From assembly GCF_000426685.1 (NCBI RefSeq), contig NZ_AUFV01000001.1, positions 1-64,000 of the forward strand: a stretch of DNA of 64,000 nucleotides, written 5' to 3'. The notes under the pieces are model-generated. The model did not search any database. It was given only the letters and a program-made list of their open reading frames with translations, and had not been told where the DNA came from. The stretch is from Solimonas flava DSM 18980. Its GTDB lineage: Bacteria > Pseudomonadota > Gammaproteobacteria > Nevskiales > Nevskiaceae. The position numbers and the translations under genes are program-made. Below are positions 24,132 to 27,151 of the stretch, one piece after another (the first letter of the stretch is position 1; the number at the start of each line of letters is the position of its first letter).

Positions 24132-24613
24132 AGCGTCGTGCCTACATCGGGCTCGGCGCCAATCTCGGCGACCCGCCGGCGCGGCTGCGCTGGGCCTTGA
24201 CCCGTCTGCGTGAACTCGGCGAGGTCGTCGCGCATTCGTCCCTGTACCGCAGCGCGCCGATGGGGCCGCGCGAGCAGCCCGAGTTCTGCAATGCGGTGGC
24301 GCAGCTCGACACCGCGCTGCAGCCCACCGAGCTGATGCAGGCACTGCTCGCGATCGAACGTGATGCCGGCCGTATCCGCGACATCAAGTGGGGGCCGCGC
24401 ACGCTCGATCTCGACCTGCTGCACGTCGAGGGATTCGTCCACGACACGCCCGCGCTGCGCCTGCCGCATCCGGGGATTGCCGAGCGCAACTTCGTTCTGG
24501 TGCCCTGGGCGGAGATCGCACCGGCGCTCGAAGTGCCGGGTCTCGGCTGTGTCGGCGAGCGCGCCGCGCGGATCGGGAACGAAGGTCTCGCGCTGTGGGA
24601 TTCCGGCAATTGA
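24128..24613 (+). CDS. folK: 2-amino-4-hydroxy-6-hydroxymethyldihydropteridine pyrophosphokinase
   Basis: Folate-pathway enzyme that transfers pyrophosphate from ATP to 6-hydroxymethyl-7,8-dihydropterin. The 161 residues have the family order: AYIGLGANLGDP (4-15), SSLYRSAPMG (37-46), QPEFCNAVAQLDT (50-62), and the signature GPRTLDLDLLHVEG at about 92-105 with the Asp-Leu-Asp that binds Mg-ATP. Start GTG at 24128 overlaps the pcnB TGA (GTGA). pcnB-folK pairing is common in Gammaproteobacteria, and panB-panC often follow, as here. The stop overlaps the -35 of the panB promoter. Confidence 0.95.
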   Translation: MKRRAYIGLGANLGDPPARLRWALTRLRELGEVVAHSSLYRSAPMGPREQPEFCNAVAQLDTALQPTELMQALLAIERDAGRIRDIKWGPRTLDLDLLHVEGFVHDTPALRLPHPGIAERNFVLVPWAEIAPALEVPGLGCVGERAARIGNEGLALWDSGN

Positions 24614-24637
24614 CCGCGCGTTCGAATGGGCTACACT
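24610..24637 (+). promoter_or_regulatory. Predicted panB promoter
   Basis: TTGACC (24610-24615) and TACACT (24632-24637) are 16 bases apart; the -35 overlaps the folK stop. Transcription would start near 24644, giving a leader of about 190 bases that contains two copies of the pan leader hairpin. The sequence before the -10, GAATGGGCTA, resembles that at the panD promoter. Confidence 0.7.
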
Positions 24638-24682
24638 GCGCCCGCTTCGCACTCGGTCGCCAGGCCGCGGGCGGCGCGCATC

Positions 24683-24756
24683 GGGTGTCTGCCTTAGTGG
24701 GCCGCCCTTTTCACAAAGCCCGTAAACGCCGCGCGTATGTCTTTTTGGGCCGCGCG
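24683..24756 (+). promoter_or_regulatory. Tandem structured leader hairpins upstream of panB (copies A and B)
   Basis: Copy A (24683-24707): stem GGGTG/CGCCC, 3-base bulge TCT, inner stem GCCT/GGGC, loop TAGT. Copy B (24730-24756): stem CGCGCG/CGCGCG, bulge TAT, inner stem GTCT/GGGC (with two G-U pairs), loop TTTT. The starts are 48 bases apart. Both copies match the two upstream of panD in plan: variable outer stem with compensating changes, unpaired UNU on the 5' side, constant GGGC. This is consistent with a cis-acting RNA regulating pantothenate synthesis. The ligand or binding factor is unknown, and identity with the published pan motif is not shown. Confidence 0.72.
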
Positions 24757-24833
24757 CGTTTCCCCATCGAAGCCGCGTGCCCGCCTCGACACTGACGACG
24801 AGGCGCGACGCCGAGTCTTCCGGGAGCCCTCAC

Positions 24834-25745
24834 ATGGAAGTTGCCAAGCCCGTCAACGTCGCCGAGCTGCGCCGCATGCGCGCGGCCGGCGAGAAGATTG
24901 CCAGCCTCACCTGCTACGACGCGAGTTTCGCGCTCGTCGAGGACCGAGCCGGAGTCGACGTCATCCTCGTCGGCGACTCGCTCGGCATGGTCATGCAGGG
25001 CGGCACGACGACCACGCCGGTCACCGTCGATCATGTCGTCTATCACAGCAAATGCGTCGCCCCGCAGCTCAAGCGCGCGTTCCTGGTCGCCGATCTGCCG
25101 TTCCTGTCATACGCCACGCTCGAGCGTGCGCTCGATGCCTCGCAGCGCCTGATGCAGGAGGGCGGGGCCAAGATGGTCAAGCTCGAGGGCGGCCGCGAGC
25201 AGGCGGCGATCGTCGAGTATCTCGCTATCCGCGGCGTGCCGGTCTGCGCGCATCTGGGCCTGCAGCCGCAGTTCGTCCACAAGATGGGTGCGTTCAAGGT
25301 CCAGGGTCGCGACGACGCCGCGGCCGAGGCGATGTTGCACGACGCCAAGGTGCTGGCCGATGCCGGTGCCGATCTGCTGGTGCTCGAGTGCATTCCGTCC
25401 GAGCTCGGCCGTCGCATCACCGAGATCTCGCCGGTTCCCGTGATCGGCATCGGCGCCGGCCCGGCGACCGACGGCCAGATTCTGGTGTTGCAGGACATCC
25501 TCAATATTTCGCCGCTGGTCACGCTGGGGCGGCGTCCGCGCTTCGTGAAGAACTATATGGATGGGGCATCGAGCATCGAGGCCGCGATTCGCGCGTACGT
25601 CGGCGAGGTCAAGTCCGGCGCCTATCCGGATGCCGAGCACAGCTTCGCCGAGGTTTCCAGGGCCCTGCCAACAACGACCGCTGCGCTGACGTCGCCGTCG
25701 GTCGGCGCGACGGACGAGGTCGTGACGAAGGTGCCGCGCGCGTGA
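24834..25745 (+). CDS. panB: 3-methyl-2-oxobutanoate hydroxymethyltransferase
   Basis: First committed enzyme of pantothenate synthesis: transfers a hydroxymethyl group from methylene-tetrahydrofolate to ketoisovalerate, giving ketopantoate. The 303 residues show the TIM-barrel landmarks LTCYDASFA (23-31), VILVGDSLGMVMQG near 41-54 with the Mg-binding Asp, GGAKMVKLEGG near 108-118, and GIGAGPATDGQILV near 203-216. The C-terminal 35 residues are an extra Ala/Thr/Ser/Val-rich tail compared with the E. coli protein of 264. GGGAG lies seven bases before the ATG at 24834, which is preferred over the upstream in-frame ATG at 24777. The stop overlaps the panC start. Confidence 0.96.
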   Translation: MEVAKPVNVAELRRMRAAGEKIASLTCYDASFALVEDRAGVDVILVGDSLGMVMQGGTTTTPVTVDHVVYHSKCVAPQLKRAFLVADLPFLSYATLERALDASQRLMQEGGAKMVKLEGGREQAAIVEYLAIRGVPVCAHLGLQPQFVHKMGAFKVQGRDDAAAEAMLHDAKVLADAGADLLVLECIPSELGRRITEISPVPVIGIGAGPATDGQILVLQDILNISPLVTLGRRPRFVKNYMDGASSIEAAIRAYVGEVKSGAYPDAEHSFAEVSRALPTTTAALTSPSVGATDEVVTKVPRA

Positions 25746-26599
25746 TGGACACCGTTCACCATATCGATGCGCTGCGCGCGCAATTGCAGGTCTGGCGGCG
25801 CGAAGGGGCGCGTATTGCCCTGACGCCGACGATGGGCAATCTGCATGCCGGTCACCTGCGTCTCGTCGAGGCCGCGCGCCGCCGCGCCGACCGCGTCGTC
25901 GCCAGCGTCTTCGTCAATCCGCTGCAGTTCGGGCCGAACGAGGATTTCGACCGCTATCCGCGCACACTGGATGCCGATGCCGACAAGCTCGCCGGGGCCG
26001 GGTGCGACCTGCTGTTCGCGCCGAGCGTCGCCGAGATGTATCCGCACGGCCGCGACGGCTTCACGGTGATCAGCGTACCGCGCTATGCCGATCTGCTCGA
26101 AGGCGCGTTCCGGCCGGGGCATTTCGATGGCGTCGCCACGGTCGTCAACATTCTGCTGACGCTGGTGGCGCCCGATGTCGCGCTGTTCGGCGAAAAGGAT
26201 TACCAGCAACTGCTGGTCATCCGGCAGATGGCGCGCGATCTGCACATGCCGGTGGAAATCGTCGGCGTGCCGACCGAGCGTGAGGCGGACGGGCTGGCGC
26301 TGTCGTCCCGCAACCAGTACCTGCTGCCGGCCGAGCGGGCGCAGGCGGCGATGCTGTATGCCGCCCTGCAGCGCGTCGGCGAGGCCCTGCGCGCCGGCCG
26401 GCGCGATTACGCTGCCCTGTGTGCGACCGAGATCGAACGGCTCGGCAACGCAGGATTTCGTCCGCAATATCTGACCGTCCGGCGGCCCGACTTGAGCGAG
26501 CCTGATGCAGCCGACCGCGAATTTCGCATCCTTTTGGCGGCTTTTCTGGGCAAAACGCGGCTGATTGACAACATCGGTCTTATAACGGAAACGGTTTGA
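25745..26599 (+). CDS. panC: Pantothenate synthetase (pantoate--beta-alanine ligase)
   Basis: Joins pantoate and beta-alanine with ATP hydrolysis to AMP; cytosolic dimer. The 284 residues carry the synthetase signatures: TPTMGNLHAGHLRLV at about 28-42 (HIGH-like motif HAGH), SVFVNPLQFGPNEDF at 56-70, FGEKDYQQLLVI at 149-160, and LALSSRNQYL at 185-194 (KMSKS-like loop). The ATG at 25745 shares its A with the panB stop (TGATG), implying coupling; a GTG one codon earlier is also in frame. The frame is normal to the end, and panD follows under its own promoter after 160 bases. Confidence 0.97.
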   Translation: MDTVHHIDALRAQLQVWRREGARIALTPTMGNLHAGHLRLVEAARRRADRVVASVFVNPLQFGPNEDFDRYPRTLDADADKLAGAGCDLLFAPSVAEMYPHGRDGFTVISVPRYADLLEGAFRPGHFDGVATVVNILLTLVAPDVALFGEKDYQQLLVIRQMARDLHMPVEIVGVPTEREADGLALSSRNQYLLPAERAQAAMLYAALQRVGEALRAGRRDYAALCATEIERLGNAGFRPQYLTVRRPDLSEPDAADREFRILLAAFLGKTRLIDNIGLITETV

Positions 26600-26623
26600 T
26601 CATAGAGCGAAATGGGCTAGAAT
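26596..26623 (+). promoter_or_regulatory. Predicted panD promoter
   Basis: TTGATC (26596-26601) and TAGAAT (26618-26623) are 16 bases apart, the same spacing as at panB, with a similar AAATGGGCTA before the -10. Transcription would begin near 26630 and give a leader of about 130 bases with two hairpin copies. The -35 overlaps the end of panC. Confidence 0.7.
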
Positions 26624-26659
26624 CGCGGCCCAGAGCTTTGTGACCACCATCACAGGCAC

Positions 26660-26734
26660 CGGGCGTATGTCTTTGTGGGCCGCCCGCCTTTATCGAGATC
26701 CGCGAGCGCCGGCGTATGTCTTTTTGGGCCGCCG
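26660..26734 (+). promoter_or_regulatory. Tandem structured leader hairpins upstream of panD (copies C and D)
   Basis: Copy C (26660-26686): outer stem CGGGCG/CGCCCG, bulge TAT, inner stem GTCT/GGGC, loop TTGT. Copy D (26710-26734): outer stem CGGCG/CGCCG, bulge TAT, inner stem GTCT/GGGC, loop TTTT. The linker is 23 bases, against 22 at panB. Compared with copies A and B the outer stems differ in sequence on both sides yet stay paired, which is covariation within one window. Copy D ends 27 bases before the panD ATG, so folding could affect ribosome access. Promoter, hairpin pair and gene form a unit parallel to that at panB. Confidence 0.75.
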
Positions 26735-26761
26735 ACGCAGCAACAATTCCTGAGGCCCTCC

Positions 26762-27151
26762 ATGCAACTGCAACTGCTGAAATGCAAGCTGCATCGCGCT
26801 TGCGTGACGCACGCCGAGTTGGACTACGACGGTTCCTGCGCGATCGATGCCAAGCTCCTCGAACTGGCCAATATCCTCGAGTTCGAGCAGATCCAGATCT
26901 ACAACATCACGAACGGCGAGCGTTTCACGACTTACGCCATCAAGGCCGAGCCGGGGTCGGGCATCATCTCGGTGAACGGGGCCGCCGCGCACAAGGCCGG
27001 CGTCGGTGACCGCGTCATCATCTGCGCGTTCGCGTCGATGGATGCTGCCGCGGCGCGCGTCTACAAGCCGAGCCTGGTCTATCTCGACGAGAAGAACCGC
27101 GTCGTCCGCACCGCGAACACGATCCCGGTTCAGCCCGCCGCCAGCGCGTGA
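26762..27151 (+). CDS. panD: Aspartate 1-decarboxylase (pyruvoyl enzyme)
   Basis: Makes beta-alanine from L-aspartate for pantothenate synthesis. The pro-enzyme cleaves itself at Gly24-Ser25 to form the pyruvoyl group; both residues are present in YDGSC, with Lys9, His11, Tyr22 and the later segments [12 protein letters not shown] and [16 protein letters not shown]. Length 129 residues, as expected. The ATG at 26762 puts Gly24-Ser25 at the exact canonical positions. In enterobacteria maturation needs PanZ; no panZ is in the window. Downstream, a 2OG-oxygenase-like gene overlaps the stop by four bases. Confidence 0.97.

Follow-up and report, generated by a model that had tools for sequence, protein, structure and literature searches.

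This analysis concerns a small RNA hairpin that occurs in tandem in the leaders of the pantothenate genes panB and panD of Solimonas flava DSM 18980. The window, which is the whole stretch of DNA that was analysed, comprises 64,000 nucleotides (contig NZ_AUFV01000001.1, positions 1 to 64,000, forward strand) and encodes folK, panB, panC, and panD, whose identities were confirmed by family matches. Two copies of the hairpin, P1 and P2, lie upstream of panB, and two lie upstream of panD. A pair of the same kind stands directly 5' of panD in 57 of 57 panD-bearing genomes, 56 of the family Nevskiaceae and one from another family (G040), covering 13 genera, and all of these leaders were read. The element is apparently specific to this clade of bacteria from soil and water, and judging from sequence comparison it probably controls the amount of pantothenate enzymes made. 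The features of the locus are as follows; the bit scores come from R1, a single-hairpin covariance model for which all four copies are training sequences.

24610..24637, + strand: sigma-70-like promoter of the panB leader, TTGACC-16-TACACT (a consensus match only, 9/12; 1 site against 0.1 expected in shuffles)
24683..24707, + strand: P1 hairpin of the panB leader, core 24688-24702 (37.2 bits)
24730..24756, + strand: P2 hairpin of the panB leader, core 24736-24750 (47.1 bits)
24766..24823, + strand: P3, a possible hairpin 3' of P2 and 5' of the ribosome-binding site of panB (weak; -21.8 kcal/mol, z -1.05)
24834..25745, + strand: panB, ketopantoate hydroxymethyltransferase (TIGR00222)
25745..26599, + strand: panC (TIGR00018), its start overlapping the panB stop
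26596..26623, + strand: sigma-70-like promoter of the panD leader, TTGATC-16-TAGAAT (a consensus match only, 9/12; 1 site against 0.1 expected)
26639..26654, + strand: P0, a possible hairpin of the panD leader, TGTGACCACCATCACA, also a TGTGA-N6-TCACA palindrome (own z only -0.16)
26660..26686, + strand: P1 hairpin of the panD leader, core 26666-26680 (50.5 bits, E 1.7e-9)
26710..26734, + strand: P2 hairpin of the panD leader, core 26715-26729 (39.9 bits)
26751..26755, + strand: probable Shine-Dalgarno sequence (SD) of panD, TGAGG, assigned from the sequence
26762..27151, + strand: panD, aspartate 1-decarboxylase (TIGR00223)

The coordinates that the first-pass annotation gave for the four hairpins are exact, and the stems, bulge, inner stem, and loop that it described are present in every copy. 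The unit consists of an outer stem of 5-6 bp, a 3-nt bulge on the 5' side (UCU or UAU), an inner stem of G(U/C)CU with GGGC, and a loop of four. Each copy adopts this architecture when folded singly, at -12.8 to -19.0 kcal/mol (z -0.70 to -2.40), and the stem of the panD P2 can be extended across one mismatch to 26706-26738. A count over the 4.46-Mb genome gave 11 occurrences of the core TNTGYCTNNNNGGGC, including the 4 at the pan leaders, and the same pattern read backwards gives 4 occurrences. When the loop is narrowed to TNKT, only the four pan-leader copies are left genome-wide. These four are also the only exact core matches in the window; with one mismatch allowed, the window holds 11 matches against 6.9 expected, a number reached by 5 of 100 shuffles. 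A UCU bulge combined with a GCCU inner stem was found in the panB P1 of five genomes of the window's genus group (24683-24707, L108, L109, L113, and L115). Nearly all other copies have an N-A-U bulge, and the sole other UCU copy, the panD P1 of G061, retains GUCU.

Two covariance models were used for the comparison. R1 was trained on 32 of 33 distinct copies; seven loci without fitting arms (L012, L014, L020, L021, and L038-L040) and the near-duplicate L033 had been left out beforehand. R2 describes the two hairpins together and was trained on 41 of 57 panD leaders, hand-chosen for diversity. R2 matches the panB leader of S. flava at 24680-24762 with E=4.8e-14, a pair that lies outside its training set, which includes the panD pair of the same genome. 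In the S. flava genome, R1 finds the four copies and one weak match (E=0.07), which has the 5' arm without the rest of the core. R1 was then run over 85 genomes of the order Nevskiales with a match cut-off of E<=0.1.

Matches to R1 were found in 58 of the 85 genomes, namely 56 members of Nevskiaceae, G040, and G051. The match in G051 is a lone weak one (E 0.0077), away from panB and panD, and it is the only R1 match among the 26 remaining genomes of the order. Two members of Nevskiaceae without a panD match (G067 and G035) have no hairpin copy. In other families of the order, no copy was seen by eye upstream of panB and panD (16 genomes) or of panD alone (3 genomes). Within the 57 genomes, the only R1 matches away from pan loci are four weak ones, each in a different genome (E 0.018-0.071). 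The pan genes of G040 (L162) group within Nevskiaceae in a panB/panD tree; either its pan locus was transferred or the family placement of the genome is wrong.

Wider searches covered a class sample of 369 genomes and a phylum sample of 398 genomes, with the genome of S. flava counted in each. Searches over more than 40 genomes use stricter filters, by which weak matches are lost and diverged copies could be missed. R1 gave one weak outside match in the class sample (G230, E 0.0095), which was read as letters only. Beyond the two pairs of the window, R2 gave 4 weak matches in the class and 6 in the phylum, the best with E 3.1e-4 (G305). None of these 10 lies beside a pan gene, as read by eye in their surroundings without comparison with a family library. 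A search with the strict pattern returned 31 contigs, of which 27 are titled with names of the Nevskiaceae group. These titles are Solimonas, Nevskia, Fontimonas, Sinimarinibacterium, Panacagrimonas, Stagnimonas, Stenotrophobium, Hydrocarboniphaga, Nevskiaceae, Nevskiales, and Sinobacteraceae. The element is also present on contigs titled Verrucomicrobia (L094, CAJCJI010000531.1) and Rhodospirillales (L098, CAJCJH010000085.1). These two record titles are probably wrong, since the contigs correspond to the Nevskiaceae genomes G077 and G033.

The arrangement before panD is constant. The cores of P1 and P2 are 46-53 nt apart in the 57 genomes, and in 56 of 57 leaders the distance from the beginning of the second core to the start codon is 44-53 nt (60 nt in G066). 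Of 56 genomes, 18 have another pair before panB: 9 of the 11 genomes in the window's genus group and 9 of the 17 in g3, the genus group of Nevskia and its relatives. The panD leader is probably the ancestral place of the pair, and the panB pair probably arose by copying. In g3, all nine panB leaders with the pair carry a short upstream open reading frame (uORF) that starts 44-48 nt past the P2 core, as panD does. Several start codons were listed for each leader and the one at this distance was taken; in G065, a further in-frame ATG lies at 32 nt. The uORF is preceded by a purine-rich, SD-like stretch, and in 9 of 9 leaders its stop and the inferred start of panB share bases, in the form ATGA or GTGA.

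g3 panB leaders with the overlapping uORF: L128, L130, L131, L136, L137, L139, L140, L142, and L143

Seven of the nine uORFs begin like panD itself, with ATGCAA, and one more begins with GTGCAA; the stretch before the uORF is similar to the panD leader in several genomes. Most simply, a copy of the panD leader would have been placed before panB with its start codon included, and panB would now be translated by coupling to the relic reading frame. The overlap of uORF stop and panB start in all nine Nevskia-type leaders points to translation initiation as the step concerned.

Evidence for the RNA structure was taken from a pooled table of 147 of 150 hairpins, from which two with five-base loops and one that was truncated at the edge of its retrieved sequence were dropped. 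At the second inner pair, 129 hairpins have U·G and 18 have C-G. The outer pair 8/26, next to the closing pair, is CG in 71, UA in 40, UG in 33, CA in 1, and other in 2. If the two positions varied independently, some 20 CA should occur (Fisher p 3e-14, relatedness ignored). Reconstructed by parsimony on a gene tree for 56 genomes, this pair changed 10 times in P1 and 13 times in P2, and 22 of the 23 changes keep a standard pair. The asymmetry between U·G and C·A is a mark of RNA and of the sense strand. The outer arms of P2 are variable, some with a bulged base. When panD P2 arms were swapped between genera, the cognate arms folded better by 4.6 kcal/mol on average and in 84% of swaps. By genus mean the cognate arms were better in 12 of 13 genera, in g4 by only 0.15, the exception being g2. 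Swapping panB P2 arms between genomes favoured the cognate arms in 83%. The claim that both sides of the stems change together thus holds for the four copies and, in relatives, for P2 and pair 8/26.

Paired cells, cells with double change, and the covariation score all exceeded every one of 500 shuffles in both the single-hairpin and the pair alignments, although these three measures are the ones that relatedness inflates. Among the single-stranded letters, the bulge NAU (mostly T/C, A, T) and the loop UNKU are near-invariant across the 147 hairpins. Retained pairing, the wobble asymmetry, and the behaviour of the P2 arms give the fold good support in the compared sequences. The proposal of a structured cis-regulator gains strong support from the retention of the pair in the panD leaders, and the paired positions are conserved in relatives.

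The first-pass annotation had left open whether the element was a divergent relative of the pan motif (RF01749) or a new class, and the results favour the latter. No Rfam family matched positions 24400-27000 at E<=10, and RF01749 was found in 0 of 21 genomes of the order at E<=0.001, with the positive control in Bacillus subtilis found. Membership in RF01749 or in any other Rfam family is therefore rejected by covariance-model searches. The likeness to the pan motif lies in tandem copies upstream of panB, panC, or panD, an arrangement that is also seen here. The architectures differ: the Nevskiaceae unit has a 3-nt 5' bulge, inner U·G pairs, and a UNKU loop, whereas pan RNAs are stems defined by two bulged A residues (Weinberg et al. 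2010, PMC2864571, where a protein-binding role is only suggested). The pan motif also occurs in a different clade. The element may work like the pan motif but is not a member of that family by these tests, and the same plan as in other phyla seems to have been reached independently. It is apparently a new RNA element. No description of such an element in Nevskiaceae was found in the open-access literature searched, and a description in a 2017 survey of 224 motifs is excluded only to the extent that Rfam includes its motifs.

Other known systems share single aspects with the element. The HIV-type TAR RNA, with a lower stem, a 3-nt pyrimidine-rich 5' bulge, a 4-bp upper stem, and a loop, is a classic protein-binding shape. 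The analogy is of shape only, as the present unit has a 4-nt loop, an NAU bulge, and U·G pairs and lies in a bacterial mRNA leader. In enterobacteria, PanD is controlled by its partner PanZ (PanM; PMC3496974). This control is likewise aimed at PanD and the beta-alanine step, but it acts at the protein level. Among the 57 element-bearing genomes, only 2 pass the Pfam cut-off for PanZ, weakly and over part of the model; PanZ was rejected as the existing regulator because these genomes hold no convincing homologue. The nadA motif (NAD+-I riboswitch) sits in the leader of a cofactor-synthesis gene. It consists of two similar tandem bulged stem-loops (PMC7297122), but its bulge, ACANCCCC, and its gene differ and no Rfam match exists here, so that the analogy is one of plan only.

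Comparison of genomes shows the structure of the hairpins, their arrangement in tandem at a fixed distance from a start codon, their restriction to pan genes, and the uORF overlap. From these we infer the regulation itself, translation as the regulated step, a protein binder, and the logic of feedback. With about even confidence, it is proposed that the element consists of clade-specific, cis-acting tandem hairpins that are bound by a protein, exert translational feedback on panD and panB, and are convergent with the pan motif. Each leader would be transcribed from its own predicted promoter, with starts predicted near 24644 (panB) and 26630 (panD) from the promoter matches, and would present P1 and P2, two hairpins of one kind about 49 nt apart, with P2 ending shortly before the panD SD. 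P1 and P2 would serve as binding sites of a putative RNA-binding protein, probably dimeric or two-headed, that would report the state of the pantothenate and coenzyme A (CoA) pathway. Bound beside the ribosome-binding site, this protein would block, or set, the initiation of translation. In Nevskia-type panB leaders, the signal would be relayed through the short uORF whose stop overlaps the panB start. Translation initiation is proposed as the controlled step because the distance to the initiation site is constant and no terminator-like site was found in a scan of the panB and panD leaders of S. flava. A fixed short distance to the start codon, as expected for a repressor-bound leader, is seen for panD (56/57) and for the g3 uORFs (9/9). 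A protein with two RNA-binding sites is proposed because the units are small, paired, and evenly spaced, which is the argument made for the pan motif (PMC2864571).

Several results weigh against this proposal or against the fold on which it stands. The pattern by which cores were collected requires G(C/T)CT...GGGC, so the perfect inner pairing of the pool is partly by construction; 0 of 57 panD leaders fail this pattern. The arms of P1 are almost invariant, and its cognate arms were no better than swapped ones (47% in panD leaders and 34% in panB leaders). A self-built, R-scape-like test (not R-scape) with a null that moves substitutions along the tree found no significant pair in 56 panD leaders (G031, with a five-base loop, excluded); the best E was 0.92 overall and 16 for a structural pair. 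This test used an ungapped register, which misplaces P2 stems with a bulged base, a problem that the arm swap avoids. The result became marginal when hairpins were pooled: among 129 distinct hairpins, one structural pair reached E=0.046 within the structure-limited test and none did so across all pairs, and stem pairs make up three of the five top-ranked column pairs. In the shuffles, the two measures least distorted by relatedness, pairs with double change (89/500) and further pair types (305/500), did not stand out in the pair alignment, and in the single-hairpin alignment the former stood out partially (15/500) and the latter did not (119/500). Sliding the structure by +3 lowered the covariation score only a little, from 0.139 to 0.122 in the single-hairpin alignment and from 0.130 to 0.099 in the pair alignment. 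Formal covariation thus supports the fold only moderately.

Folding energies and the panB leaders of the window's genus group add to these points. The z-scores of whole-leader folding are unremarkable (-0.01 and -0.46), and the first panB copy is predicted to rearrange within its 111-nt context, so that the evidence is comparative and not energetic. The genus group has no conserved panB uORF, and in S. flava the P2 core lies 98 nt from the ATG; these leaders do not show the fixed distance to the start codon that a repressor leader would have. For a fixed distance to apply in this group, either P3, whose support is weak, would have to fold or a different start codon would have to serve. According to the folding predictions, P3 may occupy the interval between P2 and the start, and its z ranges from -0.03 to -3.30 in the nine genus-group genomes with a panB pair. 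An in-frame GTG at 24777, 57 bases 5' of the ATG and 41 nt past the P2 core, is an alternative panB start. By its position, it could be the real start in S. flava and in genome G007.

The best-surviving alternative to translational control by a protein is a riboswitch, in which the hairpins bind a metabolite of the pathway (CoA, pantothenate, pantoate, beta-alanine, or a derivative) and alter access to the start site. This is unlikely, although the near-invariant bulge and loop beside conserved helices, the specificity for metabolic genes, and the tandem plan shared with the nadA motif would suit it, and the element is a conserved structured leader RNA of a metabolic gene, as riboswitches are. 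The units of about 25-31 nt with a core of 15 are small for a selective aptamer. Most validated cofactor riboswitches are presumably not confined to one family as this element is. No alternative fold that hides the SD was seen, though none was looked for. A 2022 review finds the lack of any known CoA-binding riboswitch puzzling and names CoA as a notable blind spot of known riboswitches (PMC9971707). A more specific form, slightly more doubtful again, is a tandem minimal riboswitch for CoA or an intermediate of the pantothenate pathway that would act on panD translation and be relayed to panB through the coupled uORF.

A constitutive leader, in which the hairpins sense nothing and only make the mRNA more stable or fix how efficiently it is translated, is improbable. 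Hairpins near the 5' end and the SD are compatible with it, as is the possible P0 near the predicted transcription start. Stability hardly explains conserved core letters, two copies, and constant spacing over 13 genera, nor does it explain the restriction to pan genes. It is very unlikely that the element is a double-stranded DNA operator with the arms as half-sites of a transcription factor. Tandem, partly palindromic sites near a promoter would fit this, but the excess of U·G over C·A pairs is unexpected for DNA and points to the sense RNA strand. Moreover, the P2 arms vary and remain complementary, and the position is fixed relative to the start codon, likewise before the uORFs. Attenuation by a leader peptide, or small reading frames from the AUG of the core, is hardly credible. 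An AUG is present in 140 of 147 cores and absent from 7, the frames of P1, P2, and panD are unrelated among the 57 genomes, and many of the reading frames end after two codons (14 genomes inspected). On the unrelated frames and two-codon reading frames, the core AUG is rejected as a leader-peptide start, and the lack of a terminator-like site in either S. flava leader disfavours attenuation. A mobile, dispersed repeat unlinked to pantothenate has a negligible probability: four copies do lie within 2 kb, but instead of many unrelated genes the R1 matches concentrate at pan loci, with the four weak matches in the 57 genomes and that of G051 outside them as exceptions, and genome-wide searches refute this explanation unless some copies have diverged beyond the reach of R1.

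CoA is made from pantothenate (vitamin B5), and throughout a bacterial family the genes for this vitamin carry a tandem RNA that is compact and strongly conserved. Named strains (Solimonas, Fontimonas, Sinimarinibacterium, and others) carry it, and its 25-nt units, fixed spacing, and uORF-coupled variant make the binder, its stoichiometry, and the control step directly testable. If the riboswitch for CoA or its pathway were true, it would supply the class named as a blind spot in PMC9971707.

Two further observations concern the neighbourhood of the element. In the place of P0, between promoter and P1, hairpins of differing sequence are predicted in relatives of most genera, with a mean z over 13 genera of -1.35, compared with -0.27 and -0.53 in two controls; none is predicted in g4 and g9. 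The P0 sequence of S. flava, downstream of the panD promoter match, resembles a CRP-type palindrome. In addition, seven genomes (G005, G011, G013, G014, G017, G025, and G072) have another PanB-like match elsewhere, which is more distant (E 1e-63 to 1e-81).

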